A DNA stretch of 64,000 bases from Aeromicrobium senzhongii. Lineage in GTDB: Bacteria > Actinomycetota > Actinomycetes > Propionibacteriales > Nocardioidaceae. Made by a program: the position numbers and the translations under genes. Shown piece by piece: positions 37,895 through 58,320 of this stretch (within the stretch, counting starts at the first letter, position 1; each line of letters starts with the position of its first letter). The DNA lies in NCBI RefSeq assembly GCF_014334735.1, contig NZ_CP060587.1, forward strand, positions 2,170,001 to 2,234,000, in the 5' to 3' direction. The notes under the pieces are model-generated. The model was not told the origin of the DNA. It saw nothing but the letters and a program-made list of their open reading frames with translations, and ran no database searches.

Positions 37895-37969
37895 GTACCC
37901 CGGCGGGCTCGTCTCATGCGGCCCTTGCGCCATGGTCTCCCGATGCATGAGGTGGCGCGAGTTGGGTAC
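37895..37969. promoter_or_regulatory. Divergent SigB/F-type promoters
   Basis: Minus strand: GCAT (37919-37916), 15 bases, GGGTAC (37900-37895), 35 bases before ATG 37860. Plus strand: GCAT (37945-37948), 15 bases, GGGTAC (37964-37969), 33 bases before ATG 38003. Both match the -10 GGGTAC and the spacing of stress sigma factors; the -35 is GCAT instead of GTTT. Confidence 0.7.
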
Positions 37970-38002
37970 GCCCCGGGTGTCCGACACCACAGGAGGATCA
38001 CC

Positions 38003-38176
38003 ATGACCACGCCGCACCCCGAATCGCCCGCCGAGGGCCCCGATCCCGACGACCCGTCGACGAAGCCCGATCAGCCCATCGATCCCGACGAGCCCACGGT
38101 CCCCGGTCCCGAGGGCCAGCCCCAGGGAGTCCCGAACATCCCGGACAACCCGACCGACCCCGTCTTCCCGAGCTGA
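38003..38176 (+). CDS. Small proline/aspartate-rich disordered protein (57 aa)
   Basis: 57 residues, mostly Pro, Asp, Glu, Thr, such as DPDDPSTKPDQPIDPDEP; predicted fully disordered and acidic. AGGAGG lies 6 bases before the ATG, an ideal ribosome site, and a GGGTAC promoter sits 33 bases upstream, so it is almost certainly expressed. First gene in an operon with the FAD-Rieske enzyme and DUF72 protein. No recognised family. Confidence 0.75.
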   Translation: MTTPHPESPAEGPDPDDPSTKPDQPIDPDEPTVPGPEGQPQGVPNIPDNPTDPVFPS

Positions 38177-38183
38177 GGTGTCG

Positions 38184-39686
38184 ATGATCGACGACAACCG
38201 CCCCGTGTGGGAGGTCCCCGCCGCTGTCGGACCCAGCGACGAGTTGCCCGACGCCTGCGAGGACCTCGTCATCGGGGCGGGGGTCGTCGGCCTGACCACC
38301 GCCCTGCTGCTCGCGCGGGCCGGACGGCGCGTCTGCGTGGTGGAGGCCCGCTACGTGGGCGCGGGATCGACCGGACACAGCAGCGCCAAGGTCAGCCTGT
38401 TGCAGGGCACGCGACTGTCGAGCCTGCTGAAGGACCACGACCGCGAGACCGTGCGCACCTACGTCGAGGCGAACCGCGTCGGCTTCGACTGGCTGACCGA
38501 GTTCGCCGACGAGCACGGCGTGCGGATCGATCGCCGGCCCGCCGCGACCTTCGCTGCCAGCCCCACCCAGGTCTCCTCCGCCCGGTCCGAGTACGTCGCC
38601 GCGAAGGCGCTGGGGTTGCCCGTCGAGTGGACCGAGGACGACCTGGACGTCCCCTTCCCCACCCACGGCGCCGTCGTCCTGCCCGGCCAGGCCCAGGTCG
38701 ACCCGGGTTCGCTGCTGCAGGCGCTCGCCGCCGAGTACCGCGAGAACGGCGGCACCCTCGTCGAGGGCGCCCGGGTCGAGCACGTGAGCAAGGTCGGTCA
38801 TCCACGCGCGAAGCTGACGGACGGCCGCGAGATCACCGCCGAGTCGATCGTGGTGGCCACGGGCGCCCCGATCCTCGACCGCAGTCTGGCCTTCAGCGAC
38901 CTCGAGCCCCAGCGCTCCTACGTCGTCGCCTACGAGATGGGCAACCCGCCGCGCCTCATGGCCCTGTCGGCCGGCAGCCCGTCGGTGTCCATCCGCGACG
39001 CGTTCACCGACGACGGCCGGTCCGTCCTGCTGGTCGGCGGGTTCGGCCACGGCGTCGGCCGCACCGCCTCCGAGCGCGAGCACGTCGAGGCGATCCGCAC
39101 CTGGACCACCGAGCACTTCTCCGGCGTCCAGGAGACGGCTGTCTGGTCGGCCCAGGACTACACGACCGGCAACGGTCTGCCGCGCTACGGCCGAATGCCC
39201 CGCGGAGGCGGCCGCATGTGGTTCGCCACGGGCTTCGCCAAGTGGGGCTTCACCAACGGCACCGCCGCGGCGATCGCGATCGCCCAGGACATCCTCGGCT
39301 CCCCCGTCGCGTGGATGAAGGACGTCGCCGACCACTCGTCGCCCCTCGTGTCGGTCCGTGGCCGCGCCCACATCAACGCCGGGGTCGCCCGCGAGACCGT
39401 CACCGGGGTGGCGCGGGCCGTCACCGCGGAGCGCAGGCAGCTCGAGCCCGGCCAGGGCGCGGTGCACCGCGAGGGTGCGCGGATCGTGGCCGAGTCCCGC
39501 ACCGAGTCGGGAGTCTGCCGGGTCAAGGGCCTGTGCACCCATCTCGGCGGCGTGCTGCGGTGGAACGACGTCGAGCAGTCCTGGGACTGCCCGCTGCACG
39601 GCTCGCGGTTCTCGGCCGAGGGCGAGGTGTTGAACGGGCCCGCCACCCGGCCGTTGGCCCGCCTGGCCGACGAGTCGGACGACTGA
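38184..39686 (+). CDS. FAD-dependent oxidoreductase with C-terminal Rieske domain
   Basis: 500 residues. A DAO-type FAD domain opens DLVIGAGVVGLTTALLLARAGRRVCVVEA (~residue 28); the C-terminal ~90 residues form a Rieske [2Fe-2S] domain with CTHLGG and CPLHGSRF ligands. This fusion is found in proposed glycine/amino-acid-like oxidases and related stress-type flavoenzymes; the substrate is unknown. GAGG at 5 bases supports ATG 38184 over GTG 38178. Cotranscribed with the preceding small protein. Confidence 0.88.
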   Translation: MIDDNRPVWEVPAAVGPSDELPDACEDLVIGAGVVGLTTALLLARAGRRVCVVEARYVGAGSTGHSSAKVSLLQGTRLSSLLKDHDRETVRTYVEANRVGFDWLTEFADEHGVRIDRRPAATFAASPTQVSSARSEYVAAKALGLPVEWTEDDLDVPFPTHGAVVLPGQAQVDPGSLLQALAAEYRENGGTLVEGARVEHVSKVGHPRAKLTDGREITAESIVVATGAPILDRSLAFSDLEPQRSYVVAYEMGNPPRLMALSAGSPSVSIRDAFTDDGRSVLLVGGFGHGVGRTASEREHVEAIRTWTTEHFSGVQETAVWSAQDYTTGNGLPRYGRMPRGGGRMWFATGFAKWGFTNGTAAAIAIAQDILGSPVAWMKDVADHSSPLVSVRGRAHINAGVARETVTGVARAVTAERRQLEPGQGAVHREGARIVAESRTESGVCRVKGLCTHLGGVLRWNDVEQSWDCPLHGSRFSAEGEVLNGPATRPLARLADESDD

Positions 39687-39694
39687 GGCCGACG

Positions 39695-40522
39695 GTGGCC
39701 GATGCCCGGTACCTGATCGGCGTGAGCGGCTGGAGCTACCCGTCCTGGCGCGGCGACTTCTACCCGAAGGGACTCGTCCAGCGGCGCGAGCTCGAGCACG
39801 TGGCGAGTCGGCTGACCTCCGTCGAGGTCAACGGCACCTTCTACTCGCTGCAGCGGCCGACCACGTTCGCCCGCTGGGCCGAGCAGACGCCACCGGGGTT
39901 CTCCTTCGCCCTCAAGGGCAGCCGGTACGTCACCCACCTGCTGAAGCTGGTCCGCGTCGAGACCGCGCTGGCCAACTTCTTCGCCTCGGGGGTGCTGGAG
40001 CTGGGCGAGCAACTCGGCCCGATCGTGTGGCAGCTGCCGGCGACCTCGGTGTACGACCCCGACGTCCTCGGGGCGTTCCTGCGGCTGCTGCCCCGCACCA
40101 TGGCCGAAGCGGCGGAGCTCGCCGAGCGGCACGACGACCGACTGGGTCCCGGCCGGGCCGTCACGCAGGCGCGCGCCGACGGTCCGATCCACCACGCACT
40201 CGAGGTGCGCCACCCCTCGTTCGCGACGCCCGAGTACGCCGCCCAACTGCGCGACCTCGACGTGGCCGGCGTGTGGACCGACGCGCCCCGCCCCTGGCCG
40301 GTGCTCGACCTGCCGTCCTCGACGATCGCCTACGCACGCCTGCACGGACACACCCGCCTGTACGCGAGTCGCTACTCGGACCGGTCCCTGGACGAGTGGG
40401 GCCACTGGTGCCGACGCCGCCGCGACGAGGGCCTCGACGTCCACGTCTATTTCGACAACGACTCCGAGGGACATGCGCCCCACGATGCCGAGCGATTGCT
40501 GGATCGCCTGCGCGCCGACTGA
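39695..40522 (+). CDS. DUF72 domain protein (TIM-barrel, YecE-like)
   Basis: 275 residues. LIGVSGWSYPSWRGDFYPKGL at the N terminus, SVEVNGTFYSLQRPTTFARWAEQTPPGFSFALKGSRYVTH and FDNDSEGHAPHDAERL near the end are diagnostic of DUF72. The fold resembles endonuclease IV-type TIM barrels; activity unknown. GTG 39695 begins 8 bases after the flavoenzyme stop and gives the family N terminus. Confidence 0.9.
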   Translation: MADARYLIGVSGWSYPSWRGDFYPKGLVQRRELEHVASRLTSVEVNGTFYSLQRPTTFARWAEQTPPGFSFALKGSRYVTHLLKLVRVETALANFFASGVLELGEQLGPIVWQLPATSVYDPDVLGAFLRLLPRTMAEAAELAERHDDRLGPGRAVTQARADGPIHHALEVRHPSFATPEYAAQLRDLDVAGVWTDAPRPWPVLDLPSSTIAYARLHGHTRLYASRYSDRSLDEWGHWCRRRRDEGLDVHVYFDNDSEGHAPHDAERLLDRLRAD

Positions 40523-40570
40523 GCACCGCTCCTGTTGCCGACCCCCGTGGGCCGTGTGAGGCTGGAAAAC

Positions 40571-40595
40571 GGTTGAAGCCACAGCCACTCGGTAC
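40571..40595 (+). promoter_or_regulatory. Candidate stress-type promoter of the sigma factor gene
   Basis: GGTT (40571-40574), 15 bases, CGGTAC (40590-40595), 21 bases before ATG 40617. It differs from the other GGGTAC promoters at one base and implies autoregulation by the encoded sigma factor. Confidence 0.5.
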
Positions 40596-40616
40596 CTCCA
40601 GCGATGCGGAGTATCC

Positions 40617-41297
40617 ATGACTGCGTTGTACGACCACCCCCCGCTCTCGGCTGCCGACGACCTCGTGCTCGGACACCTCAGCCTCGCCACCGCCCTGGCT
40701 CGACGCTTCACCGGGCGCGGTGTCGACCTGGAGGATCTCGAGCAGGTCGCGCGCCTGGCCCTGGTCAAGGCCGCCCGCCGTTACGACTCCGATCAGGGGC
40801 CGTTCCCGCCCTTCGCCTCGGCCACGATCCAAGGTGAGCTGAAGCGTCACTTCCGCGACCGCGCCTGGATGGTGCGCCCGCCGCGCCGGGTCCAGGAGAT
40901 CCAGGCGCTGATCGTGAGCGAGCAGCTCCCCGAGGTCACGTCATCGAACCTCGACCAGCTGGCCGCGCGCATCGGTGTCGAGCCCGAGGACCTGCGCGAC
41001 GCGGTGGTGGCGCGCGGGTGCTTCCAGCCCGACTCCGTCGACGACATCAGCCACGGCCGTCGCGAGTTCGCGCACGCCGACGACAACCTCGACTTCCTCG
41101 TCGAGTGGATGTCCGTGGCCCGTCCGCTGCGCGAGCTCGGTGAGGACGAGCGTCGACTGCTGCACTGGAGGTTCGTCGACGGCCTCACGCAGCAGGTCAT
41201 CGCCGATCGCCTCGGGATCAGCCAGATGCAGGTCTCGCGTCGGCTCTCGAAGGTGCTGTCGACCCTGCGCCACCATCCCGACCTCGCGGCGGCCTGA
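40617..41297 (+). CDS. SigB/SigF-family RNA polymerase sigma factor
   Basis: 226 residues. Region 2 reads VDLEDLEQVARLALVKAARRYDSDQGPFPPFASATIQGELKRHFRD, typical of SigB/F/G group 3 factors; region 3 has LDQLAARIGVEPEDLRDAVVARG; region 4 helix-turn-helix is LTQQVIADRLGISQMQVSRRLSKVL. No anti-sigma (RsbW) or anti-anti-sigma gene is adjacent, unlike the classical partner-switch arrangement. Surrounding GGGTAC promoters make the local genes its likely regulon. Confidence 0.9.
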   Translation: MTALYDHPPLSAADDLVLGHLSLATALARRFTGRGVDLEDLEQVARLALVKAARRYDSDQGPFPPFASATIQGELKRHFRDRAWMVRPPRRVQEIQALIVSEQLPEVTSSNLDQLAARIGVEPEDLRDAVVARGCFQPDSVDDISHGRREFAHADDNLDFLVEWMSVARPLRELGEDERRLLHWRFVDGLTQQVIADRLGISQMQVSRRLSKVLSTLRHHPDLAAA

Positions 41298-41322
41298 CGG
41301 CCCCACGTCGCAGCACGCGTCC

Positions 41323-41350
41323 CGCCCTCTCCCACGCCAGGGAGGGGGCG
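41323..41350 (+). terminator. Hairpin after the sigma factor gene
   Basis: 11-bp arms with one G-U pair (41323-41333 and 41340-41350) and a 6-base loop, 26 bases after the stop; no T-run. Confidence 0.65.
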
Positions 41351-41366
41351 TCGTCGCGCACGGTGC

Positions 41367-42395: not shown

Positions 42396-42509
42396 ACCCC
42401 GGCCGCCGCCCGGGGCGGGAGTCCTCGCCTCGAGGCGGTAGGGCAGGCTTGATCTGCAAGGACGATATCTGAGCGTAACAATTGAACGTACCGAAGCAGA
42501 CAGGAATGA

Positions 42510-43859
<1,350 letters not shown>

Positions 43860-44154: not shown

Positions 44155-46638
44155 TCAGTGCTGCCACCACGCGTGGTGCCTGCCAGCGGGTTTCCCTGCA
44201 TCGGGCCTGCGGTAGTCGCAGACACCGCCGGGGAAGACCTGCTGCAACCGGGCGAGCTCCTCGCGGGTCGGCTTCCACGAGCCGTACAGTCCCGATCGCG
44301 CCGCCTTCGAGACCGGTTGCAGGGCGCACTTCCAGATGCCGCCCTCGAAGGGCGCGCCGGCGACGCGACGCGAACTCGAGTAGATCGGGAAGCGCTGCGT
44401 GCACTCCCCCGCGGACCGCGTGTCGATGATCCCGCTCCACACCCTCGACCCGGCCGCGATGACGTCGCCGGTGGTCGTGAAGCAGGTGTCGACGGCACGG
44501 CGCGGCTTGTTGCCCGACACCCCGCGGCGCGGATGCCTCGCGATGTTCGCCATCCACTCGTCGATCACCTCGAACGCGCGCAGGGTGGGGTCGTAGTCCT
44601 GCGCGGGACGGGCGTCGGTGAACCAGATCACCTGGTTCGACGCGTCGCCGTCGACGTTGAGCATCCGCTGACGGGTGGCGAACGACTGCTGGGTGTTGTG
44701 CATGTCCAGCTCGTCCTCCAGGTACGGACGCAGGTCGATGATCGGGATGTCGATGTCGCCCTGGAACTGCATGCCCGAGGTGTAGGCCGCACGCATCGCC
44801 CGCAGGTCCCCCTCGCGGCGAGGAGCCGGCGCGTCGCCGCCGGGACTGAGCTTCATGTTGCGCGAGCTCCACGGATCGAAGTTCTGCGGTGTCGTCGGGC
44901 CCGCGAACGGTGCCCCCTCGGTCACCATGTCCCGGGACTCCTTCCAGCTGCCGACCTTCGCGTTGAGGTCGAGGAACTCCGCCGGGGTGATGACACCGTC
45001 CTTCAGCGCCTGCAGGCCGTACTGCACGCCCACGTTGTCCCACGGCACGCGGGCGTATCCGTCGGGCCCGGTGCCGTAGACGTTCACGAGGTCGGCGAAG
45101 TGCGTCCACTCCACGCCGTCGGTGCCCTGGGCGAGCTGGTCGAGGTCGTCCACGTCGGTGAACGTCGGGTTGAGCGCCAGCGGTGTGAGCCCGAACCAGC
45201 CGGGCTTGCACTCCGACAGCGGAGGCGCCGCGGAGCCGGGCGCCCGGTCCATCACCTGGTAGCCGAGCGCCTGCATCGCACCGTACAGCTGGTTCCACTG
45301 CGCGATCTCGCCCGCGGAGAGGTTCTTGGGCTCCTTCGTGCCGTTGAGGCCGATGATCGCCTGGCGGACCTCCGGGTCCTTCCACTTCGCGTTGGTCCGG
45401 TCGGTCGCGTCGAAGTAGTGCTCCAGCAGCTCGCAGTCGCCCACGTGGATCACCTGCGTGACCATGTCGGGATAGGAGTACTGCGGGATCGCCGCGTCGA
45501 TGATGCCCGGATGGTTCTGGGCGTAGACGTACTGCTGGATCGCCCCGCCCGACCCGCCCACGGCCACCGTGTAGTCGGGCACCCCGTAGGTCTCGACGGC
45601 CCGCTCCTTCAGCATGAGCGCCGTCTCGCCGCCCAACTGGAGGTTGTAGTGCGTGCTGGTCCTGGTGCCGCTGGACCACATCACGCCGTACCCCTGGCCG
45701 AGCAGCTCCGCCGGCAGCATCGCATCGTCGCTCGTGGTGCCCTGCGTGTGCCCGATCGCGACGCCGCCCTGGAAGCTGAACACCAGCCGGCGGTTCCACA
45801 GCGCCCCGTCGGGGCGCTCCGGATCGGCATCGCCGACCGGCGCCAGCACCGCGATGCTGTAGATGAAGCGGTTGATCGTGCCGCGTTCCCAGCGCACGAC
45901 GAACGGCACCTGCCGCCCGTCGTCGGTGGTCGTGGTCGCGGTGTCGGCCGGCGCGTTCGCCGGGTCGTCGAGCCAGTGGAACCGATCGTCGGTCGTCGAG
46001 CGGTAGACGTACCCGATCCGGCGCTCGGCGGCACAGTTCGCGCTCCAGCCCACCGTCTGGGCCGCGGCGGTGGGATAGCCGCGCGCATCCTGCGGGTAGT
46101 CGCCGTTCGCGTCCTGCCGCGCCACCGCGATGCCCTGACGGTCCTGGTTGTCCACGATCGGCTGGCCGAGGATCTTGCGCCCGTCGAATCGACCTCGCGC
46201 CGTGGTGCAGACGAAGGGCTGCTGGTGCGGTCCCGAGAAGATGGGCCCGGCGGCCGGGTGGTTCGTGACCCGCACCGAGGCGGGGCGGGCCCCCACCCTG
46301 GCACCTCGACGCACGTCGGCACGCAGCGTGGTCCTGCCCTCGCGCAGGCCGCTCACCAGACCGACCAGCGTGCGGTCGGCGGTGAGGTCGAAGGCATCGG
46401 TGACGTCGGCCGCGCCGGCTCGGACCACCACGTCCGCGGGCCTGACCCGCCGCGGGACACGCACCTCGACGAGGGCGTCGCCGGCCGACACCTGGTGCGC
46501 CGCGCTGGACAGCACCTCGATGCGCAGGGCTTCACCGGGCCGGGCCGCTCCTTCGGCGGCGACACCGGCTCCCGCGACGAGCGCGGTCCCCGCGACCGCG
46601 ACGAGGACGGGACGGACGAGACGGTGAAGAGCACGCAT
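44155..46638 (-). CDS. Secreted DUF6351-type protein (alpha/beta-hydrolase-like)
   Basis: 827 residues. An N-terminal signal (basic MRALHRLVRP then a hydrophobic core and an alanine-rich cleavage region near residue 35) indicates secretion. The mature part has a ~100-residue beta domain followed by a large domain with VAVGGSGGAIQQYVYAQNHPGIIDAAIPQYSYPD, a G-x-S-x-G nucleophile elbow like tannase and ester hydrolases. Substrate unknown. GGGAG lies 6 bases before the ATG. Confidence 0.78.
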   Translation of the reverse strand: MRALHRLVRPVLVAVAGTALVAGAGVAAEGAARPGEALRIEVLSSAAHQVSAGDALVEVRVPRRVRPADVVVRAGAADVTDAFDLTADRTLVGLVSGLREGRTTLRADVRRGARVGARPASVRVTNHPAAGPIFSGPHQQPFVCTTARGRFDGRKILGQPIVDNQDRQGIAVARQDANGDYPQDARGYPTAAAQTVGWSANCAAERRIGYVYRSTTDDRFHWLDDPANAPADTATTTTDDGRQVPFVVRWERGTINRFIYSIAVLAPVGDADPERPDGALWNRRLVFSFQGGVAIGHTQGTTSDDAMLPAELLGQGYGVMWSSGTRTSTHYNLQLGGETALMLKERAVETYGVPDYTVAVGGSGGAIQQYVYAQNHPGIIDAAIPQYSYPDMVTQVIHVGDCELLEHYFDATDRTNAKWKDPEVRQAIIGLNGTKEPKNLSAGEIAQWNQLYGAMQALGYQVMDRAPGSAAPPLSECKPGWFGLTPLALNPTFTDVDDLDQLAQGTDGVEWTHFADLVNVYGTGPDGYARVPWDNVGVQYGLQALKDGVITPAEFLDLNAKVGSWKESRDMVTEGAPFAGPTTPQNFDPWSSRNMKLSPGGDAPAPRREGDLRAMRAAYTSGMQFQGDIDIPIIDLRPYLEDELDMHNTQQSFATRQRMLNVDGDASNQVIWFTDARPAQDYDPTLRAFEVIDEWMANIARHPRRGVSGNKPRRAVDTCFTTTGDVIAAGSRVWSGIIDTRSAGECTQRFPIYSSSRRVAGAPFEGGIWKCALQPVSKAARSGLYGSWKPTREELARLQQVFPGGVCDYRRPDAGKPAGRHHAWWQH

Positions 46639-46689: not shown

Positions 46690-47370
46690 CTACATCACCT
46701 TGTCACCCGGGGGGGTCTCCGCCTCGCCCCGCGCGCGGCGAGCCACGCGGTACGCCGGGGCGCGCAGCCGCGTCACCCAGGAGTAGTTCCGCAGCCCGGG
46801 CAGCGGACGGCGGATCGGGTCGTACGACGGCTCCTCGTCGATCTCGTGCAGCAGCCGCAGGTGCGCGAAGCCGATCCACTCGCCCGTCCCCTCGGCACGC
46901 AGCAGCACGTACTCCTCGGGCTGCGTCTGCACGGCCGCCAGCAGGATCGGTCCGGCCGGACCGCGGTACGGCATCAGGGTCGAGGTCAGGTGCCGGCTGG
47001 ACGGTCGGACGGGACGCAGCAGGAAGCGGCTGAGTCGGCCCGCGCCCGTGCTGCCCAGCAGCAGGTCGGCCCCCTGCTGATCGGGCAGCCGGATCGCCAC
47101 ACCCTGCAGGTCCGGCCAGCCGTGCGGCAGGCCGATCGCCGCAGACACCCGCACGAGGGCGGAATCGCGGCCCGGCTCGTCCAGCCACGGCACACCGGTG
47201 GGCAGCAGGGTGCCGACGCGGACGACCTCGCCCTGCCACACCGACCCGCGCGGGTGCAGCGGCTTCGGCGCCCGGCGCAGCGCCGACCCGACCCGCGTGG
47301 CGGCGCCCAGCACCTGACCGGCCGCCGAGGCGGCGACTCCCGTCGCGGACTCCATGACGCGGCCGTTCAC
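46690..47370 (-). CDS. Uncharacterised protein downstream of epimerase (catalase-like motif)
   Basis: 226 residues. The middle PHGWPDLQGVAIRLPDQQGADLLLGSTGAGRLSRFLLRP resembles the haem-free end of catalase-related proteins annotated as phosphodiesterases in actinomycetes, but no active-site residue can be named. GTG 47370 overlaps the epimerase stop (GTGA), choosing the start; ATG 47355 is possible. Last gene of the catalase-glycosyltransferase run. Function unknown. Confidence 0.7.
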   Translation of the reverse strand: MNGRVMESATGVAASAAGQVLGAATRVGSALRRAPKPLHPRGSVWQGEVVRVGTLLPTGVPWLDEPGRDSALVRVSAAIGLPHGWPDLQGVAIRLPDQQGADLLLGSTGAGRLSRFLLRPVRPSSRHLTSTLMPYRGPAGPILLAAVQTQPEEYVLLRAEGTGEWIGFAHLRLLHEIDEEPSYDPIRRPLPGLRNYSWVTRLRAPAYRVARRARGEAETPPGDKVM

Positions 47371-48365
47371 GGGTGCAGCGGGGGCATCGTGCTGCCGGCG
47401 CGCTGCGGCATGCCTTCCAGCAGGGCGTTGACCGCGTCGCGGCCGGAGTGACGCGGAGACCAGCCCAGTTCGGTCCGGGCGCGGTCGGTGGACATCAGCG
47501 GGACGTGCATCAGCGCGTTGAACAGGCTGCCGGGGACCGGCAGGGCGTGCACTCGCCACGCGGCGTCGAGTCCTCGCTGGACCACCGCCGGGGGTACCTC
47601 GACGGTCTTCGCGCCCATCAGGTCGCCGATCTCGTCCCGGCGCAGCACGCCCTCCCCCGCCAGGTTGAAGGCGCCCGAGACGGGTCGCTCGACGGCGGCC
47701 GCGATGGCCCGCGCGACGTCCCCGGCGTGGACGGCCTGCAGCCTCAGTCCCGAAGGCACCGGGACGATCGGGATCCGCCGGCGATCGAGCAGGCCGGGGC
47801 GCGCCAGGGCTCCGCCGAAGATGCGGCGCTGCTCGCTGGCCGCGGAGCGCTGGAACGTGAACGCGGGCCGCAGGCGCACGACGCGGGCGTCCGCGTGCGC
47901 GGCCTCGAACGCGTCGAGCGTGCGCTCGACGTAGGCCTTCTCGCGGCAGTACGTCGCCTCGGACGCCCCGTCGGTCAGCCAGGTCTCGTCCACCGGGGTG
48001 TCGTGGTCGACCGGTGAGTACGCCGCCACCGAGGAGGCGCACACCACCGCCGGGACGCCCACCTCGGCGACGGCGTCGAGCACGCGGCGCGTACCGACCG
48101 CGTTGGTGCGCCACGTGACGTCCTGACGGTGCGTCGGCTGGAACTTCCACGCCAGGTGCACCACGGCATCGGCGCCGGTGAAGATCGTCGAGAGGTCGTC
48201 GCGCGAGACGTCGGCGGCGTGCCAGCGCACCGAGGCGGCTCCGGCGTTCTCGACCTCCGGGCGCCGTCGCGCCAGGGCGATCACCTCGTGACGCCCGTCC
48301 GCGGACAGCTCGCGCAGGGCTGCGGACCCCATGTTCCCGGACGCGCCGGTGATGACGATCTTCAT
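47367..48365 (-). CDS. NAD-dependent sugar epimerase/dehydratase
   Basis: 332 residues, extended SDR: ITGASGNMG at residue 5, ADVSRDDL, SSVAAYSP with the catalytic YCREK Tyr/Lys pair, and a C-terminal VHAGDVARAIAAAVERPVSGAFNLAGE. It acts on a nucleotide-sugar or related substrate not identifiable here. Its own GTGT-N15-GGGTAC promoter lies in the end of the upstream glycosyltransferase gene, so it can be expressed separately. Confidence 0.88.
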   Translation of the reverse strand: MKIVITGASGNMGSAALRELSADGRHEVIALARRRPEVENAGAASVRWHAADVSRDDLSTIFTGADAVVHLAWKFQPTHRQDVTWRTNAVGTRRVLDAVAEVGVPAVVCASSVAAYSPVDHDTPVDETWLTDGASEATYCREKAYVERTLDAFEAAHADARVVRLRPAFTFQRSAASEQRRIFGGALARPGLLDRRRIPIVPVPSGLRLQAVHAGDVARAIAAAVERPVSGAFNLAGEGVLRRDEIGDLMGAKTVEVPPAVVQRGLDAAWRVHALPVPGSLFNALMHVPLMSTDRARTELGWSPRHSGRDAVNALLEGMPQRAGSTMPPLHP

Positions 48366-48374
48366 GCGGGGGAC

Positions 48375-48399
48375 GTACCCGCTCCGGGGCCCCTCACAC
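48375..48399 (-). promoter_or_regulatory. Stress-type promoter for the epimerase gene
   Basis: GTGT (48399-48396), 15 bases, GGGTAC (48380-48375), ending 9 bases before ATG 48365. It overlaps the last codons of the neighbouring glycosyltransferase gene. Confidence 0.65.
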
Positions 48400-49221
48400 G
48401 CCGGTCGTCCTGACCCAGTCGTCCCCGTGTCGCTCGACGAGGCCGCGCTCGGCGAACGCGTCCAGCCAGCCCTGCATCGGCCACCGGCCCCAGCGGCGCC
48501 GGAAGATCGCGCCGTTGCGGAGGATGTCGTCCAGGTGGCGGATCGGCGGACGCTCGACCGGGTGGTGCTGGTGGAAGGCACGGGCCGCCCCGGTCCAGCC
48601 GAGCTCGAGGCCCGCGGCGACGGCACACTGGGCGAAGTCGGTGTCCTCGCCGCCGTACCCGACGTACTGCTCGCAGAAGCCGCCGATGCGCGCCCACGTG
48701 TCGCGGTGCAGGGCGAAGGACAGCGACCAGAACAGGTCGGGATCGCCGCCGCGGATCCGCTCGCCGGCCGCGGGTGCCGGGCGAGCCGGATGGGGGTCGT
48801 CCCAGGACTCGAGGTCGGCCAGCGGGTAGCCGCCGGCCGGCGCCGGCGGCAGGTAGGTCACCGGTCCGCACCACAGCCGCTGCGGCTCGGCCGTGACGGC
48901 CTCGGCGTAGTCGGCGACGAGCGTCGGCGCGGCGAGGCAGTCGACGTCGAGGAAGACGAGTACGTCGGCCCCCCGGTCGATCGCCGTCTGCGCACCGAGG
49001 TTCCGCGCCGCTGCGAGCGGCAGCCCCTGAGGGCCGACGTCGATCGGCAGGACGCGCGGCGCCGGTGCCCCCGTGGGAGCCCAGTCGTGCAACCGGGGGT
49101 CGCCCATCGCCACCACGACCCGGTCGTCGGGGCACCGGGTGCTCGCCGACAGCGACCGGTGCTGGGCCGTCAGGTGCTCGTGACGGCCGTGGACCACCGT
49201 GATGACAGCGACGGAGGTCAT
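48394..49221 (-). CDS. GT2-family glycosyltransferase (galactosyltransferase-type)
   Basis: 275 residues, GT-A fold. VITVVHGRHEHLTAQHRSL opens the nucleotide-binding domain, VFLDVDCLAAP supplies the DxD metal site, and GYGGEDTDFAQCAVAAG is the acceptor-side motif of the galactosyltransferase C-terminal group. It overlaps the previous glycosyltransferase by 4 bases at ATG 49221. Donor and acceptor unknown. First four genes of the cluster form a coupled run. Confidence 0.87.
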   Translation of the reverse strand: MTSVAVITVVHGRHEHLTAQHRSLSASTRCPDDRVVVAMGDPRLHDWAPTGAPAPRVLPIDVGPQGLPLAAARNLGAQTAIDRGADVLVFLDVDCLAAPTLVADYAEAVTAEPQRLWCGPVTYLPPAPAGGYPLADLESWDDPHPARPAPAAGERIRGGDPDLFWSLSFALHRDTWARIGGFCEQYVGYGGEDTDFAQCAVAAGLELGWTGAARAFHQHHPVERPPIRHLDDILRNGAIFRRRWGRWPMQGWLDAFAERGLVERHGDDWVRTTGV

Positions 49222-50210
49222 CGGACCGAGGCCACCTGCGTGACCCGTGCGACGACCTCGGCGAAGCGCTCCGCCGCCCGTCCGTCGCACCAGGGCGCCC
49301 AGTCCCGGCCGTCCAGTCCGACGGCCCGGTCGAGCCGCTCGGCCCAGCCGGTCGACGGGAACTCGCGCTCGACCACGACGGGCCACGGGCCTGAGGCCAG
49401 GACGCCGGCCGTGGTGCGCTGCTCGTCGTGGGGCCGGGCGCCCGGGACCACGATGGCCGGGCGCCGGGCGGCGGCGACCTCGGCGATCGCGTTCTGGCCC
49501 GCGTGGGTCAGCACGACGTCGGCGTCACGGATCGAGGGGAACGGGTCGGCGAGCCACGGGCCGTCGGACCCGCCGAGGATCTCCCACTGCCACCCCGGCG
49601 TCTGGCGGCGCGCCTCGTCCAGCTGCGCCGCCGTGGGGCCTCCCCCACCGCGGCCGTTGAGCACGACCACCCGCCGGCTGGACGACGAACGCTGCGGCAC
49701 CTCGTCAGGCGCGGTGAACCGCGAGAGCGCCCCCAGCGGCCGCAGTCGCTCACCGGCTCCGATCGCCATGCCCTCGGCGCTCGGCGGCCAGAACGAGACC
49801 AGCTCGGTGGAGGCGGCGTAACCCAGCTGGTGCGCCCGGTCCGACCGGTCCCCGGGCAGGACCACCGAGATCACGGGCACCCCGTGCAGTCGCGCCAGCA
49901 ACGCGATCTCGACCGAGACGTCACTGACCACCAGGTCGGGGGCAGCCGCACCGATCCACGACGACACGGCGGCCATCCGGCTGCGCAGCCCGGGCTCGCC
50001 GAACGGCGCCCAGTGCAAGAAGCCCTCCGCGGTGTCACCGGCCGTCCGCGCGGTCAGGTCGTCACGGTCGAGCTCGATCCAGTCACCGGTCCACGCCGCG
50101 GGACGCGGCAGGGACGACAGCCCCGTGACAGGGACGTCGAGCGCAGCGGCCAGTGCCGTGGCCCGGTGCAGGTGACCGCTGCCGACGTGATGGACGTAGT
50201 AGCCGATCAT
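49218..50210 (-). CDS. GT28-like glycosyltransferase
   Basis: 330 residues, GT-B fold. MIGYYVHHVGSGHLHRATALAAAL opens with the MurG/MGDG-synthase-type HVGSGH motif; the C-terminal donor domain has VVLNGRGGGG, DADVVLTHAGQNAIAEVAAARRPAIVVP, a classical GT1/GT28 UDP-sugar site. Overlaps both neighbours by 4 bases. Product unknown. Confidence 0.85.
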   Translation of the reverse strand: MIGYYVHHVGSGHLHRATALAAALDVPVTGLSSLPRPAAWTGDWIELDRDDLTARTAGDTAEGFLHWAPFGEPGLRSRMAAVSSWIGAAAPDLVVSDVSVEIALLARLHGVPVISVVLPGDRSDRAHQLGYAASTELVSFWPPSAEGMAIGAGERLRPLGALSRFTAPDEVPQRSSSSRRVVVLNGRGGGGPTAAQLDEARRQTPGWQWEILGGSDGPWLADPFPSIRDADVVLTHAGQNAIAEVAAARRPAIVVPGARPHDEQRTTAGVLASGPWPVVVEREFPSTGWAERLDRAVGLDGRDWAPWCDGRAAERFAEVVARVTQVASVR

Positions 50211-51280
50211 GCCGCCGCTCGCGGGGCCAGTTGGTCGTAGAGCTCCTCGTAGCGGTCGACCATCACCGAGATCGAGCACCGCTCGACCGCGACACGCCGC
50301 ACGTGCGACCGGTCGAGGCCGGCGGCGTGCTCCATCGCCCGCGCGAGGTCGGCCACGTCGTCCGGCACCGCCAGCGCGCCGACGGTCTCGTCGACGATCT
50401 CGGGCAACGCACCACGAGCGAACGCGGCGACGGGCGTGCCGCAGGCCAGCGCCTCCGCGGCGACGAGGCCGTACGGCTCGTCCCACGTCGGGGTGACGAC
50501 GGCGACCCGGGCGGCGGCCACCTCCGTGCGCAGGTGGTCGTGGTCGAGGTGGCCCAGGTACGTGACGTCCCCGCCGAGCCGCGGGGCGATCTCGGCGTCG
50601 AAGTACGCGCGGTCCAGGCTCGGCCCCGCGAGCACGAGCGGCATCCCGGCCAGCCGCGCCGCGTCGATGGCCAGGTGCGGCCCCTTCTCGGGGACGATCC
50701 GGCCCGACCAGATCGCCGGTCCTCCGCCCGGGCCCTGCTGCCACCGGTCGACGTCGACACCGTTGAGGATCGTCGTGCTCGTGACGGCATGCGCCCAGGC
50801 CAGCGCCGTGAAGCGGCTGACCGAGACGAACGCGCTGTTCGCCGACGCGTAGTGCAGCGCCGACTCGAGCCAGGGCACGGGCGGCGTGTGCAGGGTCGTG
50901 ACCATGGGCACGGCGAGCGTCGAGGCCATCGCGACCGGCAGGTGGTGCAGGCTGTTGTTGTGGACGACGTCGAACCGCTGTCGTCCCGACGCCGCGAGCT
51001 CCAGCATCAGCCCCAGGTAGGCGTGGTGCTCGGCCATCCAGTTCTCGGGCGTGACCGAGATGTCGGGTCGCCCGACGAAGCCCGGCGGGAACGCCTGCAC
51101 GGGCAGCTGCCGCGTGCCCAGCCGCGGGTCGGAGCCCGGCGCGGCGAAGAGCGTGACCTCGTGCCCGCGCGCCGTCAGCTCATGGGCCAGCGCGTGGGTG
51201 TGGGACTCCAGCCCGCCGGCGAACGGCTCGCGGATCGGGAAGCGGCTGGAGGCGATCAGGCAGATCCTCAGGCTGCTCAT
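50207..51280 (-). CDS. GT4-family glycosyltransferase
   Basis: 357 residues, GT-B. ICLIASSRFPIREPFAGGLESHTHALAHEL at the N terminus is the GT4 acceptor region; the donor domain has SGRIVPEKGPHLAIDAARL and the EX7E motif in PTWDEPYGLVAAEALACGTPVAAF. Retaining transferase; donor unknown. Start ATG 51280 overlaps the upstream gene in ATGA. Confidence 0.88.
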   Translation of the reverse strand: MSSLRICLIASSRFPIREPFAGGLESHTHALAHELTARGHEVTLFAAPGSDPRLGTRQLPVQAFPPGFVGRPDISVTPENWMAEHHAYLGLMLELAASGRQRFDVVHNNSLHHLPVAMASTLAVPMVTTLHTPPVPWLESALHYASANSAFVSVSRFTALAWAHAVTSTTILNGVDVDRWQQGPGGGPAIWSGRIVPEKGPHLAIDAARLAGMPLVLAGPSLDRAYFDAEIAPRLGGDVTYLGHLDHDHLRTEVAAARVAVVTPTWDEPYGLVAAEALACGTPVAAFARGALPEIVDETVGALAVPDDVADLARAMEHAAGLDRSHVRRVAVERCSISVMVDRYEELYDQLAPRAAA

Positions 51281-52422
51281 GCCAGCAGCTCGCGGTACAG
51301 CCGGTCGTGGGCCCGAGCCACCTCGATCCGTTGGTCACGTCGCTCGTCCACCGATGCACCGTGAGCGGGCCGGGTCCGGTACGCGTGCCGGACGGCGTCG
51401 GCCAGCGAAGCGGCGTCGAACCGCGCCTCGTCGAACCCGAAGGACAACACGGGACCCTGGTCCGCGTAGTACCCGCAGGTCGGGGCGAGGACTGTCGTAC
51501 CCAGGTCGCGGCAGGCCTCGAGCCAGCCCGAATGGCTGCCGAAACGGTACGGCAGGACCGCCAGGTCCAAACCGGCCAGGTAGTCCCACAGGTCGCGGTC
51601 GGGGAGGAAGTCGTGCACCCGCAGGTCGACGCGTCCCTCGGCGCTCGCCTGCTCCAGCCACTGCGCGATGACCGGCTCGCGGCGGGCGCCGTCGGGATCG
51701 AGCACGTCGTGGTGCCCGTTCACCTGCAGGACGGCACCGGGCAGGTCCCGGATCGTCTCGTCGAGGACCCGCAGCACCGGAAGGGGGTCCATGCTCTGGC
51801 GCAGGCTCTTGATGTGCAGGCCGATGCGGAACTCGCCCGACGTCGACGCCTCGCGCCGGCGGCGCAGGCGCGCCATCGTGTCGAGTTCGACGACGTGCGG
51901 ATGCGGCAGCACCAGCGCCTCGCGCCCCCACCGGCGGGCGATCTCGGCGGCGGCACCGTCGGTCAGGGTGATGACCGCATCGGCCGCCGCCACCAGGACG
52001 CCAAGCTGCTCGTCGTGCAGTTCGCGCGTGGGGTGGTGCGGATTGCGCAGGTCGTGGGCCGTCAGGACGAGCGGCTTGCCCCGCTCACGCAGGACGCCGA
52101 CGAGCCGGGACAGGTCCTCGGGCGAGCACGCGTCGAAACCGAACTGCACGTGGAACACGTCGAAGTCGGCGGTCGCCGCCCACTCCGGTCGCAGCATGAC
52201 GGGCGGCCACCACTTCGTGGTGGCGCTGCGCGACGGGTGGTCCGGATCGGGATCGGGCAGGTGCACGAACGGACTCGGCCCCGACGGGGGCCGCAGGTGA
52301 CGCACGTAGACGTGCGTCGAAGGGACGGAGGCGACACGCACGGTCGCACCGCCCGGCGGGGGGACCGAGCCGGGCCACGGACGATCGTCCGTGGCCCGGC
52401 TCTCGAGGGCTGACCTCGTCAC
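51277..52422 (-). CDS. GT-B glycosyltransferase (GT1-like)
   Basis: 381 residues. DVFHVQFGFDACSPEDLSRLVGVLRERGKPLVLTAHD resembles the GT4-type acceptor domain with a SHVLP-free form; the second half contains RIGLHIKSLRQSMDPLPVLRVLDE and LAVLPYRFGSHSGWLEACRDLGTTVLAP, a weak donor-site match. First glycosyltransferase of the run, starting 11 bases after the catalase stop. GGAG lies 5 bases before GTG 52422. Confidence 0.8.
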   Translation of the reverse strand: MTRSALESRATDDRPWPGSVPPPGGATVRVASVPSTHVYVRHLRPPSGPSPFVHLPDPDPDHPSRSATTKWWPPVMLRPEWAATADFDVFHVQFGFDACSPEDLSRLVGVLRERGKPLVLTAHDLRNPHHPTRELHDEQLGVLVAAADAVITLTDGAAAEIARRWGREALVLPHPHVVELDTMARLRRRREASTSGEFRIGLHIKSLRQSMDPLPVLRVLDETIRDLPGAVLQVNGHHDVLDPDGARREPVIAQWLEQASAEGRVDLRVHDFLPDRDLWDYLAGLDLAVLPYRFGSHSGWLEACRDLGTTVLAPTCGYYADQGPVLSFGFDEARFDAASLADAVRHAYRTRPAHGASVDERRDQRIEVARAHDRLYRELLA

Positions 52423-52433
52423 GAAGTCTCCAT

Positions 52434-54710
<2,277 letters not shown>

Positions 54711-54749: not shown

Positions 54750-54809
54750 GTACCCGTTCGGCGGCTATTCATGCGCCCTCGCCCGAATCATCGATCCGTG
54801 GCCGGGTAC
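54750..54809. promoter_or_regulatory. Divergent stress-type promoters of katE and a small protein
   Basis: Minus: GCAT (54774-54771), 15 bases, GGGTAC (54755-54750), 40 bases before katE. Plus: GAAT (54785-54788), 15 bases, GGGTAC (54804-54809), 24 bases before ATG 54834. The pair mirrors the layout at 37.9 kb, and both small acidic proteins lie on the plus side. Confidence 0.68.
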
Positions 54810-54833
54810 CTCCCTCACAGAAGGAGGGATCAC

Positions 54834-55007
54834 ATGACCCACGACCCGAACGATTCCCAGGACAAGGACAAGGACGAGAACGAGGAGTCCGGCACCGTCA
54901 GCGAGAGCTCGGCGGATCCCACTCCCCCCGCGACCGATGCCACGACGTCCGAGGACGTCCACGACACCCCGCAGTCGCCGACGCGACCCGACGTCGCCGA
55001 CCAGTAG
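54834..55007 (+). CDS. Small acidic disordered protein (57 aa)
   Basis: 57 residues: DPNDSQDKDKDENEESGTVSE and a Ser/Thr/Pro/Asp-rich remainder; no hydrophobic cluster, so disorder is expected. GAAGGAGGG precedes the ATG by 7 bases. Divergent from katE under a GGGTAC promoter, it belongs with the similar proteins at 34960 and 38003. Hydrophilin-like; function unknown. Confidence 0.72.
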   Translation: MTHDPNDSQDKDKDENEESGTVSESSADPTPPATDATTSEDVHDTPQSPTRPDVADQ

Positions 55008-55028
55008 GCGGCCGGCGGGCCGGGCGGC

Positions 55029-55289
55029 TCACGCCAGGGCGAGGAAGAGCTTCTCCATCTTCTTGGCGTCGACGCTGTCCGGTCCGCCCTCGACGAGGCA
55101 CTTCTGCAGGCCCGTCGCCACGAGCGCGTAGCCGCCACGGCCGATCGCCTTGTTGACCGCCGCCAGCTGGGTCAGGGCGTCCTCGCAATCCGCGCCCTCC
55201 TCGAGCATCCGGATCACCGACGCCAGGTGCCCGTTCGCCCGCTTGAGTCGCAGGGTGATGGCCTTGACCTCGTCGGGTTCCAGTTGCAT
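55029..55289 (-). CDS. CsoR-family regulator with Cys/Gly/Cys sensor site (CstR-like)
   Basis: 86 residues, four-helix DUF156 fold: VKAITLRLKRANGHLASVIRMLEEGADCEDALTQLAAVNKAIGRGGYALVATGLQKCL. CsoR copper ligands are Cys-His-Cys; here they are C35, G60 and C64, so the histidine is absent. A two-cysteine site is the persulfide-sensing CstR type. Two C6/G-run operators lie in the divergent promoter region. No sulfide-detoxification gene is adjacent, so the true signal is open. Confidence 0.85.
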   Translation of the reverse strand: MQLEPDEVKAITLRLKRANGHLASVIRMLEEGADCEDALTQLAAVNKAIGRGGYALVATGLQKCLVEGGPDSVDAKKMEKLFLALA

Positions 55290-55315
55290 CGGTCGTTCCT
55301 TCGTCGCTCGGTTTT

Positions 55316-55368
55316 GTATCCCCCCGGGGGGTTCTGTTATCGTACAGCACGTATCCCCCCTGGGGGTT
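55316..55368. promoter_or_regulatory. Tandem CsoR-family operators
   Basis: GTATCCCCCC-GGGGGGTTC (55316-55334) and GTATCCCCCC-TGGGGGTTG (55351-55369), G/C-run inverted repeats flanked by AT pairs as in CsoR/CstR operators. A TATCGT -10 (55338-55343) sits between them; blocking both would shut the AhpD-like operon. Confidence 0.75.
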
Positions 55369-55391
55369 GTTTGACACGAATCGAGAGAACC

Positions 55392-55781
55392 ATGACCGAC
55401 TCACCCACGACGGGCTCCTCCCACGGCAAGGCCGTGCTGCGCGAGCTCTCGCCCCAGCACCGTGCCCTGCGCAAGGCGATCCCCGACGTCTACAAGGGCT
55501 TCGCCGAGCTGTCGGGCGCCGCGTTCGCCGACGGCGAGCTGGACCGCAAGACCAAGGAGCTCATCGCGCTGGCCATCGGCGTCGTCGAGGGCTGCGACGG
55601 GTGCATCGCCTCGCACGGCCAGTCCGCCGCGCGCGCCGGCGCCACCCGCCAGGAGGCTGCCGAGGCCATCGGGGTCACCTTCCTCATGCACGGAGGTCCC
55701 GCGACGGTCCACGGCGCTCGGGCCTACGAGGCGTTCTGCGAGTTCGCGGACGCCATCGACGCGAACGAGGCGACCGTCTGA
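55392..55781 (+). CDS. AhpD-like carboxymuconolactone decarboxylase-family peroxidase
   Basis: 129 residues. The redox site E-G-C68-D-G-C71-I-A-S-H75 is intact, as in AhpD, which reduces peroxide through a CxxC/His centre; GVTFLMHGGPATVHGARAYEAF is the family C terminus. It is controlled by the adjacent CsoR-like repressor and overlaps the next small gene in TGATG. Peroxide reduction is family inference. Confidence 0.88.
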   Translation: MTDSPTTGSSHGKAVLRELSPQHRALRKAIPDVYKGFAELSGAAFADGELDRKTKELIALAIGVVEGCDGCIASHGQSAARAGATRQEAAEAIGVTFLMHGGPATVHGARAYEAFCEFADAIDANEATV

Positions 55782-55942
55782 TGTGCCGAGCCACCCCCTG
55801 CAAGACGTGCGGCAAGACCACCTGGGCCGGCTGCGGCAACCACGTCGCCGCCGTCAAGGCCACGGTTCCGGCCGCCCAGTGGTGCGGCGGCCACGAGGAC
55901 CCGAACAACGACTCCTGGCTGCGGCGGCTGTTGGGGCGCTGA
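55781..55942 (+). CDS. Small cysteine-rich protein (53 aa)
   Basis: 53 residues with C2, C7, C10, C18, C35 and H21, H38: CKTCGKTTWAGCGNHV then WCGGH, a pattern suited to a metal or [Fe-S] site. Similar unnamed ORFs are common in bacterial genomes. It begins at the overlapping stop of the AhpD-like gene and so is coupled to it. Likely role in thiol or metal stress; not demonstrated. Confidence 0.8.
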   Translation: MCRATPCKTCGKTTWAGCGNHVAAVKATVPAAQWCGGHEDPNNDSWLRRLLGR

Positions 55943-55982
55943 TCGCAGTGCCGGCCGGGCCGCGCGCGGGTACCTTGGGCCA

Positions 55983-57062
55983 GTGCAACGCGTAGGTATC
56001 GAGGAAGAGCTGTTCGTCGTCGACGCCGAGGGCCGGCTGGTCCCGGAGTCCGACGCAGTGGTGCGAGCGCACCGCCGGCTCGATCCCGGCGAGGAGATGG
56101 ACCACGAGCTGTTCCTGCAACAGGTCGAGATCCAGACCGACGCCCACGACGATCCCGGCACCCTGCGCGACGACCTGCTCATGCAGCGTTCCTCGGCCGC
56201 TGCGGCGGCACGTGCCGCGGGCTTCGGCCTCGCGGCCGTGCCGGTCGACGTGCTCGGCGGCAGTGAACCCCAGCCCACACCCGGCTCCCGGTACGCACGC
56301 ATGATCGCCCGCTACGGCGAGATCGCGCGCAACGGCATGACGTGCGGCATGCACGTCCACGTCGAGGTGCCCGACCGCGACGCCGTGCGCGTCATCGACA
56401 GTCTGCGGCCGTGGACTCCGCTGCTGACGGCCCTGTCCGCGAACGCTCCGTTCTTCCACGGCCGGGACACGTCGCATGCCAGTTGGCGCGGGCACCTGTG
56501 GGACACCTGGCCGACCGCGGGCCCGGTCGAGGCGTTCGGCGACCACGAGACGTACCGCGCGATGGTGGACGGCTGGATCGCCTCCGGTGCCGCGATCGAC
56601 GAGCACATGGTCTACCTGGACGCCCGGCCGGCCGAGAACTTCCCGACGGTCGAGGTGCGCGTGGCCGACGTCTGCACCGAGGTCGAGGACGCGCTCCTGG
56701 TCGCGGAGGTGACCCGCGCGCTCGTCACCACGGTCCTGTCGGAGCGCCACGAGCCCGGGACGTGGCGGCTCGAGACGCTCAAGGCGGCTCGCTGGCGGGC
56801 CCGCCACGACGGGCTGGGCGGAGCGCTGCTCGATCCCGCCACCGGCACGTTCGTGGCGGCCGAACAGGCGCTCGAGTCGCTGCTCAAGACCCTGGGCGGC
56901 GCTCTCGACGAGGCCGGCACGACCGCGGTCGTGACCGACGGCGTCCACCGCCTCCTCACCGAGGGGAACGGGGCCGTCCGCCAGCGCTCCGTCGCCGGTG
57001 AGCAACTCGACCTGGTCGCCGTCATGGCCGACCTGGTCCAGCGCACCGACCCGCAGCACTGA
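55983..57062 (+). CDS. Glutamate-cysteine ligase family protein (GCS2/YbdK)
   Basis: 359 residues. RVGIEEELFVVDAEG at the N terminus, HELFLQQVEIQTD, MTCGMHVHVEVPDRDA with the metal/ATP histidines and FPTVEVRVADVCTEVEDALL are YbdK/GCS2 signatures. Family members ligate glutamate and cysteine or related acids to amines; the exact substrate is not known. The GTG start follows TACCTT by 6 bases and a GGGTAC (55968-55973) sits close by. Ends 16 bases before the alcohol dehydrogenase stop. Confidence 0.88.
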   Translation: MQRVGIEEELFVVDAEGRLVPESDAVVRAHRRLDPGEEMDHELFLQQVEIQTDAHDDPGTLRDDLLMQRSSAAAAARAAGFGLAAVPVDVLGGSEPQPTPGSRYARMIARYGEIARNGMTCGMHVHVEVPDRDAVRVIDSLRPWTPLLTALSANAPFFHGRDTSHASWRGHLWDTWPTAGPVEAFGDHETYRAMVDGWIASGAAIDEHMVYLDARPAENFPTVEVRVADVCTEVEDALLVAEVTRALVTTVLSERHEPGTWRLETLKAARWRARHDGLGGALLDPATGTFVAAEQALESLLKTLGGALDEAGTTAVVTDGVHRLLTEGNGAVRQRSVAGEQLDLVAVMADLVQRTDPQH

Positions 57063-57077
57063 CGGACGGACGAATCG

Positions 57078-58256
57078 TCAGGGCTTGAACAGCACCTTGA
57101 CCGTGTTGTCGGTCTTGGCCTGGAAGTTCTTGTAGACCTCGGGCGCCTGGTCCAGCGGCACGCGATGGGTCGCGAAGTCGCCCAGGCCCAGCGGGTCGGA
57201 CGAATCCTCGGCGATCGGCTTCACGTCGTCGACCCAGCGCTTCACATTGGCCTGGCCCATCTTCAGCGTCACCTGCTTGTCGAACAGGACCTGCAGCGGG
57301 ACGGGGTCGACCGTGCCGGCGTAGACGCCGATCAGCGAGATCGTGCCGCCGCGACGGACCGCGTCGACCGCCAGGTTGAAGGCGCTCATCCGGTCGATGC
57401 TCGCGGTCGTCATCGCCTTGCGGGCCAGGAAGTCCGGCAGCAGGCCGACGGCGTTCTGCGCGATCGTGGCGACGGGCGAGCCGTGCGCCTCCATGCCGAC
57501 CGCCTCGATGACGCCGTCGGCGCCCCGGCCGCCGGTGGCCTCGCGCACGACCTGGGCGACGTCGACCTTCGTGACGTCGTAGACCTCGGCCCCGCGGGCG
57601 GCGGCGCGCGCCATCCGCTCAGGAACGAGATCCACGGCGATGACGCGGATGCCCTCGAGCAGCGCCAACCGCACGGCCATGTCGCCGATCGGACCGAGGC
57701 CGATCACCAGGAGCGTGTCGCCCTCGCCGACCTGGGCGTACCGCAACGACTGGTACGCCGTGGGCAGCACGTCGGACAGGTACACGAAGTGCTCGTCGGT
57801 GAGGTCGGACTCGATCTTGATGGGCCCGTAGTCGGCGTGCGGCACGCGCAGGAGCTCGGCCTGGCCGCCCGGGACGGCGCCGTACAGGCTGCTGAAGCCG
57901 AACAGGGCCGCGCCCATGCCCTGGTCGCGCACCTGCGTCGTCTCGCACTGCGTCTGCAGGTCGTGGTCACACATCCAGCACGAGCCGCAGGCGATCTGGA
58001 AGGGGACGACGACGCGGTCGCCGACCTGCAGGTCGCTCACGCCCTTGCCGACCTCGACGACCCGCCCCATGGGCTCGTGGCCCAGGATGTCGCCCGGTGT
58101 CATGAACGGTCCGAGCACCTCGTACAGGTGCAGGTCCGACCCGCACAGCCCCGACGTCGTCACCTCGATGATCGCGTCGGTGTCCTGTTGGATCGTCGGA
58201 TCCGGCACCTCCTCGACTCGTACGTCGCGCTTGCCCTGCCAGGTCACGGCCTTCAT
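57078..58256 (-). CDS. Zinc-dependent alcohol dehydrogenase
   Basis: 392 residues, MDR family. Catalytic zinc ligands lie in TTSGLCGSDLHLY and ILGHEPMG; the structural zinc site is CGSCWMCDHDLQTQC. Rossmann LLVIGLGPIGDMAVRLALLEG follows. The long insert (AALFGFSSLYGAVPGGQAELLRVP) is that of the formaldehyde dehydrogenase-like, glutathione-independent group. It starts 40 bases after a GTGT-N15-GGGTAC promoter and so likely belongs to the stress regulon. Confidence 0.9.
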   Translation of the reverse strand: MKAVTWQGKRDVRVEEVPDPTIQQDTDAIIEVTTSGLCGSDLHLYEVLGPFMTPGDILGHEPMGRVVEVGKGVSDLQVGDRVVVPFQIACGSCWMCDHDLQTQCETTQVRDQGMGAALFGFSSLYGAVPGGQAELLRVPHADYGPIKIESDLTDEHFVYLSDVLPTAYQSLRYAQVGEGDTLLVIGLGPIGDMAVRLALLEGIRVIAVDLVPERMARAAARGAEVYDVTKVDVAQVVREATGGRGADGVIEAVGMEAHGSPVATIAQNAVGLLPDFLARKAMTTASIDRMSAFNLAVDAVRRGGTISLIGVYAGTVDPVPLQVLFDKQVTLKMGQANVKRWVDDVKPIAEDSSDPLGLGDFATHRVPLDQAPEVYKNFQAKTDNTVKVLFKP

Positions 58257-58295
58257 CTATGCACCTTTTTCGTCGAGAACGTCGGTCTCCCGGAG

Positions 58296-58320
58296 GTACC
58301 CATCACCGGCGGGCCTACAC
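58296..58320 (-). promoter_or_regulatory. Stress-type promoter of the alcohol dehydrogenase
   Basis: GTGT (58320-58317), 15 bases, GGGTAC (58301-58296), 39 bases before ATG 58256. It overlaps the final codons of the adjacent FtsX-type gene by a few bases. Confidence 0.68.

Follow-up and report, generated by a model that had tools for sequence, protein, structure and literature searches.

Clustered SigB/SigF-type promoter sites around a SigB/F/G-type sigma factor gene in Aeromicrobium senzhongii

SigB of Bacillus subtilis is encoded in the rsb operon together with RsbV and RsbW. In Mycobacterium smegmatis, SigF promoters take the form GTTT-N14-19-GGGTA, often with a spacer of 15 bases, and around 30 SigF-dependent genes are clustered at MSMEG_1758-1804, beside sigF itself (MSMEG_1804), which adjoins and is cotranscribed with rsbW (MSMEG_1803) (PMC4694148). 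The SigB, SigL and SigM promoters of Streptomyces coelicolor, which has nine paralogues of this sigma type, have a −35 box given as GNNT (the mapped hexamers include GCATAA and GTGTAG) and a −10 box that begins with GGG (PMC8346170). Here we describe a similar arrangement in Aeromicrobium senzhongii, in a stretch of 64,000 nucleotides (NZ_CP060587.1, positions 2,170,001 to 2,234,000; G000:C1:2170001-2234000 among the genomes compared), referred to as the window, of a 3.13 Mb genome that forms a single contig. Sites of the form GNNT-N15-GGGTAC are gathered there around a gene for a SigB/F/G-type sigma factor (40617-41297), and we consider it highly likely, at a probability of about 0.9, that they are the promoters of its product, a general-stress sigma factor of the SigB/SigF type.

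The set resembles the M. smegmatis SigF regulon in its motif, in its complement of catalases, hemerythrin, carboxylate-amine ligase and dehydrogenases, and in its clustering around the sigma gene, and is unlike it in having no linked rsbW (PMC4694148). Its −35 boxes are GCAT or GTGT, where those of M. smegmatis are mostly GTTT, and its −10 boxes in the A. senzhongii genome end in C throughout. The loose GNNT box and the GGG-initial −10 are shared with S. coelicolor SigB, SigL and SigM, although a single SigB/F/G sigma with many clustered targets contrasts with the paralogues of that species (PMC8346170). Sigma family and promoter layout are likewise those of B. subtilis SigB (N15 counted from GNNT equals N13 counted from the hexamer; PMC8346170), but the Aeromicrobium gene is not in an rsb operon. 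The system is a further example of the well-studied general-stress switch and not a new type of switch.

The window contains six exact matches to GNNT-N15-GGGTAC, at 37895, 37945, 48375, 54750, 54785 and 58296, where 0.67 would be expected, and none of 100 shuffles reached six. Genome-wide, in a pattern search with the reversed pattern as control, nine of the 41 matches fall within 27.6 kb around the sigma gene against an expectation of 0.36, a 25-fold excess (conservative scan bound, P = 9e-8); three of the nine lie just past the window end (C1:2234119 on the minus strand, 2234192 and 2235513 on the plus strand). For all nine, a gene on the same strand begins 5-60 nt downstream; 3% of positions lie in such a zone (binomial P = 2e-14); starts were taken from a codon-usage gene caller, and these distances may shift by an alternative start codon. 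The clustering is repeated in two relatives, G005 (10 of 35 matches in 25.3 kb, P = 2e-10) and G003 (6 of 22 in 22.5 kb, P = 5e-6).

An earlier interpretation of these letters without database searches, the sequence-only reading, had claimed a clustered SigB/F-type set of seven promoters around the sigma gene, with an exact 15-base spacing and two intergenic regions built alike with back-to-back promoters. The clustered set is borne out by the clustering, the conservation and the recurrence at redox genes; six of the seven promoters were found as claimed, and the seventh, a CGGTAC form before the sigma gene, is without conservation support. Both back-to-back pairs are present, with a third at window-equivalent 64119/64192 (window numbering continued past its end). 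The 15-base spacing holds at the six window sites but is not universal, and N15 as a strict rule was rejected since N16 is also used in relatives.

Conservation was assessed in G000 and four relatives (G005, G014, G045 and G003), whose sigma factors are 77-89% identical. Gene order around the sigma gene is mostly preserved, and the promoters recur at the orthologous genes with unchanged orientation. The boxes are fixed at orthologous promoters of three to five species (two for one gene), while at nine orthologous promoters interspecies differences affect 50% of spacer positions and 44-55% of flanks. At the same nine, the free NN of GNNT differs at 18% and the base after its T at 6%, neither being fixed by the search pattern.

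The motif also follows one of its putative target genes across a set of 49 genomes of the genus. The redox gene (PF14518) is present in 40 of them, and GNNT-N14-16-GGGTAC/T lies within 260 nt upstream at 27 of the 30 redox loci read, and at none of the 30 in the mirrored stretch by the gene's opposite end. The motif precedes the redox gene even in G002, where some 260 kb lie between that gene (C1:428165) and the sigma gene (C1:167877). None of the five genomes that lack a SigB/F/G sigma has the redox gene, while 40 of the 44 that possess one do; the strongest case is G009 (30 contigs, 99% complete, close to G000 in its other proteins), which has neither.

Several points weigh against reading these sites as promoters of the sigma factor. 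The best model for the protein, TIGR02980 (E 3e-46 over 4-224 of 227), gives 157.8 bits, below its curated cut-off of 234. The co-occurrence of sigma and redox genes (Fisher P = 7e-5) is inflated by relatedness and by incomplete genomes. The boxes were selected by pattern, and independent evidence comes only from NN, the next base and orthologous recurrence. Finally, the comparison with random frequency that the sequence-only reading had named as its refutation would have gone against the claim on the genome-wide count, since the pattern matches 41 times and its reverse 42 times and there is no overall excess. Because the total equals its control, the signal lies in clustering and conservation, and these, together with the proximity to starts and the redox recurrence, already refute the explanation that the matches arose by chance in GC-rich DNA: chance, to which we leave next to no probability, accounts neither for a local excess repeated in two relatives nor for nine of nine clustered sites just upstream of starts, boxes conserved while their spacers diverged, and a motif confined to one end of the redox gene. 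It is also very improbable that GGGTAC is a transcription factor site on ordinary promoters and not a −10 box; its GGTACC-like core is nearly palindromic, but its orientation to the gene is fixed with GNNT at a constant 15 (or 16) bases, the distance to the start fits a promoter, and the base after GNNT is conserved though unselected.

The sigma factor at 40617-41297 is the only one of SigB/F/G type in the genome; the other match, 28% identical, is to a principal-type sigma. Sigma70_r2 and Sigma70_r4 score above the Pfam cut-offs in the protein, with no Pfam match for region 3, and among NCBIfam models SigBFG and SigF rank ahead of FliA/WhiG and RpoD. The best solved-structure matches, 8x6g chain H (a sigma factor of 256 aa) and 1l0o chain C, come before SigA and FliA chains. 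A tree of 55 sigmas places the protein in a well-supported clade with those of G005, G014, G003, G045, G004 and an A. choanae metagenome-assembled genome, the last of which is among its nearest named relatives (68% identity), with Kribbella and Nocardioides. A literature search on Aeromicrobium sigma factors found nothing relevant. RNA polymerase carrying this sigma would read the GNNT-N15-GGGTAC sites, presumably with stress as the trigger, and would switch on the redox, catalase, hemerythrin, alcohol dehydrogenase, glycosyltransferase and acidic-protein genes, with about half of the recognised promoters packed in 28 kb. Elsewhere in the genus, G018, G007, G039 and G026 carry a pair of oppositely oriented SigBFG paralogues, separated by about 1 kb that includes a methyltransferase, and the two belong to different tree clades.

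Outside the cluster there are 32 matches, several of them located in long reading frames. No fewer than seven of these dispersed sites recur at the orthologue in G005 with a diverged spacer (G000/G005 pairs L011/L124, L022/L127, L030/L129, L109/L134, L111/L135, L112/L136 and L115/L138); their targets, named from a reading of translated starts and not from family searches, are MBL-fold-like hydrolase, thioredoxin-reductase-like, YtxH-like, TPP-enzyme-like and thioesterase-like proteins and two others. Because of these conserved sites a regulon confined to the cluster was rejected, and the predicted regulon is concentrated around the sigma gene without being restricted to it.

The −35 boxes vary, and the sequence-only reading had reported a drift (GCAT, GTGT, GAAT, GGTT) that might point to a diverged sigma recognising a consensus of its own. 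The variability is real but is not random, being specific to clade and promoter, and the drift appears to consist largely of stable promoter-specific variants. Most flavours are kept (GTGTAG at the alcohol dehydrogenase in five of five species, GCAT at the redox operon and GTGTGA at the epimerase), with the catalase promoter alternating between GCAT and GATT among five species. The box is mostly G[CT][AG]T in the clade of G000 and GNTT in other clades: GNTT occurs at none of the nine G000 promoters and at 3 of 38 orthologous sites of the clade (the other 35 being non-GNTT, and sites within the clade not independent), and, in other Aeromicrobium clades, at all 17 redox-gene promoters counted. 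This contrast, and a protein score below the curated SigBFG cut-off, favour a divergent sigma for which the −35 has moved to G[CT][AG]T and canonical GTTT is no longer preferred. We nevertheless think it unlikely, as the region 4.2 recognition helix GISQMQVSRRL is nearly invariant in most SigBFG proteins of the genus, and GCAT and GTGT are already known SigB −35 forms (PMC8346170), GTGT forms being included among SigF-dependent genes of M. smegmatis as well (PMC4694148). Sister clades mix GTTT, GTGT and GCAT, so part of the difference is gene-specific, and one conserved dispersed site (L115/L138) is GTTT. The −35 usage would then fall inside the range already described, possibly with a preference peculiar to the lineage.

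The sigma gene had been credited with a CGGTAC promoter of its own. The site is there, but it aligns in five species as CGGTAC (N15), CGGTAC (N16), AGGACT, CGGTTC and AGGAGT, and because the −10 is not conserved it is probably not a SigB-type promoter. What is conserved instead is TTGCCG-N17-GANNNT with an extended TGn, a putative sigma-A-like promoter. In addition, the conserved promoter at 37945 heads a run of same-strand genes of which the sigma gene comes last; the gap in front of the sigma gene measures 62-116 nt, or 642 nt in G045, for which there was no DUF72 gene call. We infer that the sigma gene would be driven by the sigma-A-like promoter as well as by the SigB-type promoter heading its operon, read-through from which would give positive feedback. 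For M. smegmatis sigF, the SigF consensus lies about 1000 nt upstream (PMC4694148).

Searches for HATPase_c_2, STAS and SpoIIE gave no match closer to the sigma gene than about 66 kb, in agreement with the earlier statement that no anti-sigma gene is nearby; the nearest HATPase_c_2 match, 66 kb away, is a histidine kinase and the nearest STAS match a long STAS protein. In the genome as a whole, too, no dedicated RsbW-type anti-sigma or RsbV-type antagonist was recognised. The genome does have one stand-alone RsbW-like ATPase (C1:76997), one short, BldG-like STAS protein (C1:186453) and one SpoIIE-like phosphatase (C1:720179), which may control the sigma. That they hold it as a dispersed partner switch, which would be compatible with the sites being its promoters, is possible, if on balance rather unlikely; they are the only stand-alone members of their families recognised in the genome, but each is found in 47-48 of the 49 genomes, including G009 and G043, which lack a SigB/F/G sigma. 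Their presence in genomes that lack the sigma means that they are, at the least, not dedicated to it, and it weakens the genus-wide RsbW-like ATPase as a candidate dedicated anti-sigma. It is doubtful, too, that the clade's sigma has both lost dedicated partner-switch control and shifted its −35 to G[CT][AG]T, leaving a compact autoregulated regulon that is controlled chiefly through sigma gene transcription. A GAF-ANTAR gene (assigned by domain in G045, 12570-13268 of L086) immediately follows the sigma gene in G014, G003 and G045 and not in G000 or G005, and other Aeromicrobium have a GAF-like protein beside the SigBFG gene.

The promoters and genes of the cluster are listed in the table. 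In every species read, the start codons of the epimerase (48365) and hemerythrin (window-equivalent 65547) follow the −10 by about 10 nt, a distance suggestive of mRNAs with almost no leader. The three small acidic proteins are strongly acidic, proline- or serine-rich and likely disordered; two are encoded by first genes behind SigB-type promoters, and family searches of two of the three gave no matches. The carboxylate-amine ligase gene (55983-57062) is preceded by GTTT-N15/16-GGGTAC in relatives, while G000 keeps GGGTAC and has lost the −35; in M. smegmatis a carboxylate-amine ligase, MSMEG_5590, is SigF-dependent (PMC4694148). A sequence at 42488-42512 on the minus strand (GCTTC...CGGTAC), identical in G005, lies inside the leader of an opposite-strand glutamate dehydrogenase gene; it was rejected as a promoter since no minus-strand gene follows, and it is conserved for some other reason. 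A gene for an 827-aa secreted-type protein (44155-46638; DUF6351-like, our label) is present in G014, G045 and G003 and missing here in the closest relative, G005.

Table. Promoter sites and genes of the cluster, in window coordinates (w.e., window-equivalent)
Feature	Position	Strand	Basis or remark
Small acidic protein, redox operon	34960-35172	-	gene call
Redox operon, whole	34960-37860	-	order kept in four relatives
HemK-like methyltransferase	35150-35812	-	family search
SDR oxidoreductase, PRK06128/PRK06701 type	35812-36672	-	family search
CDGSH protein	36665-36880	-	family search
Iron-containing redox enzyme, PF14518	36877-37860	-	family search
Putative SigB-type promoter GCAT-N15-GGGTAC, redox operon	37895-37919	-	kept in G005, G014, G045, G003
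Putative SigB-type promoter GCAT-N15-GGGTAC, operon ending with sigma gene	37945-37969	+	conserved 5/5
Small acidic protein	38003-38176	+	gene call
FAD-DAO/Rieske oxidoreductase	38184-39686	+	Pfam
DUF72 protein	39695-40522	+	Pfam
Putative sigma-A-like promoter	~40530-40575	+	spacing identical 5/5
CGGTAC site before sigma gene	40571-40595	+	aligned in five species, not conserved
SigB/F/G-type sigma factor, 226 aa	40617-41297	+	TIGR02980, Pfam, tree
226-aa protein	46690-47370	-	no Pfam match
NAD-dependent epimerase	47367-48365	-	family search
Putative SigB-type promoter GTGT-N15-GGGTAC, epimerase	48375-48399	-	conserved 5/5; overlaps glycosyltransferase gene end
Four glycosyltransferase-like genes with catalase	within 48394-54710	-	family matches for 2/4; order kept in relatives
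HPII-type catalase	52434-54710	-	family search
Putative SigB-type promoter GCAT-N15-GGGTAC, catalase and glycosyltransferases	54750-54774	-	conserved 5/5, GATT in three
Putative SigB-type promoter GAAT-N15-GGGTAC, small acidic protein gene	54785-54809	+	conserved 5/5
Small acidic protein, 57 aa	54834-55007	+	gene call; family search, no match
Zinc-dependent alcohol dehydrogenase family protein	57078-58256	-	family search
Putative SigB-type promoter GTGT-N15-GGGTAC, zinc alcohol dehydrogenase	58296-58320	-	GTGTAG conserved 5/5
DUF4383 gene	63619-64000 in window; start at w.e. 64068	-	Pfam
Putative SigB-type promoter, DUF4383 gene	w.e. 64119-64143	-	back to back with 64192-64216
Putative SigB-type promoter, DUF2243/CtaG	w.e. 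64192-64216	+	
Putative SigB-type promoter, hemerythrin	w.e. 65513-65537	+	

The analysis provides a SigB-type regulon for Aeromicrobium that is supported by sequence. It illustrates that a genome-wide motif count can mask a real regulon, which clustering and orthologous recurrence expose. The points of interest are how the sigma is regulated in the absence of a dedicated anti-sigma and a possible shift of the −35 preference; a clade whose one SigB-type sigma has no anti-sigma dedicated to it offers a clean setting for studying how such a sigma is held off.

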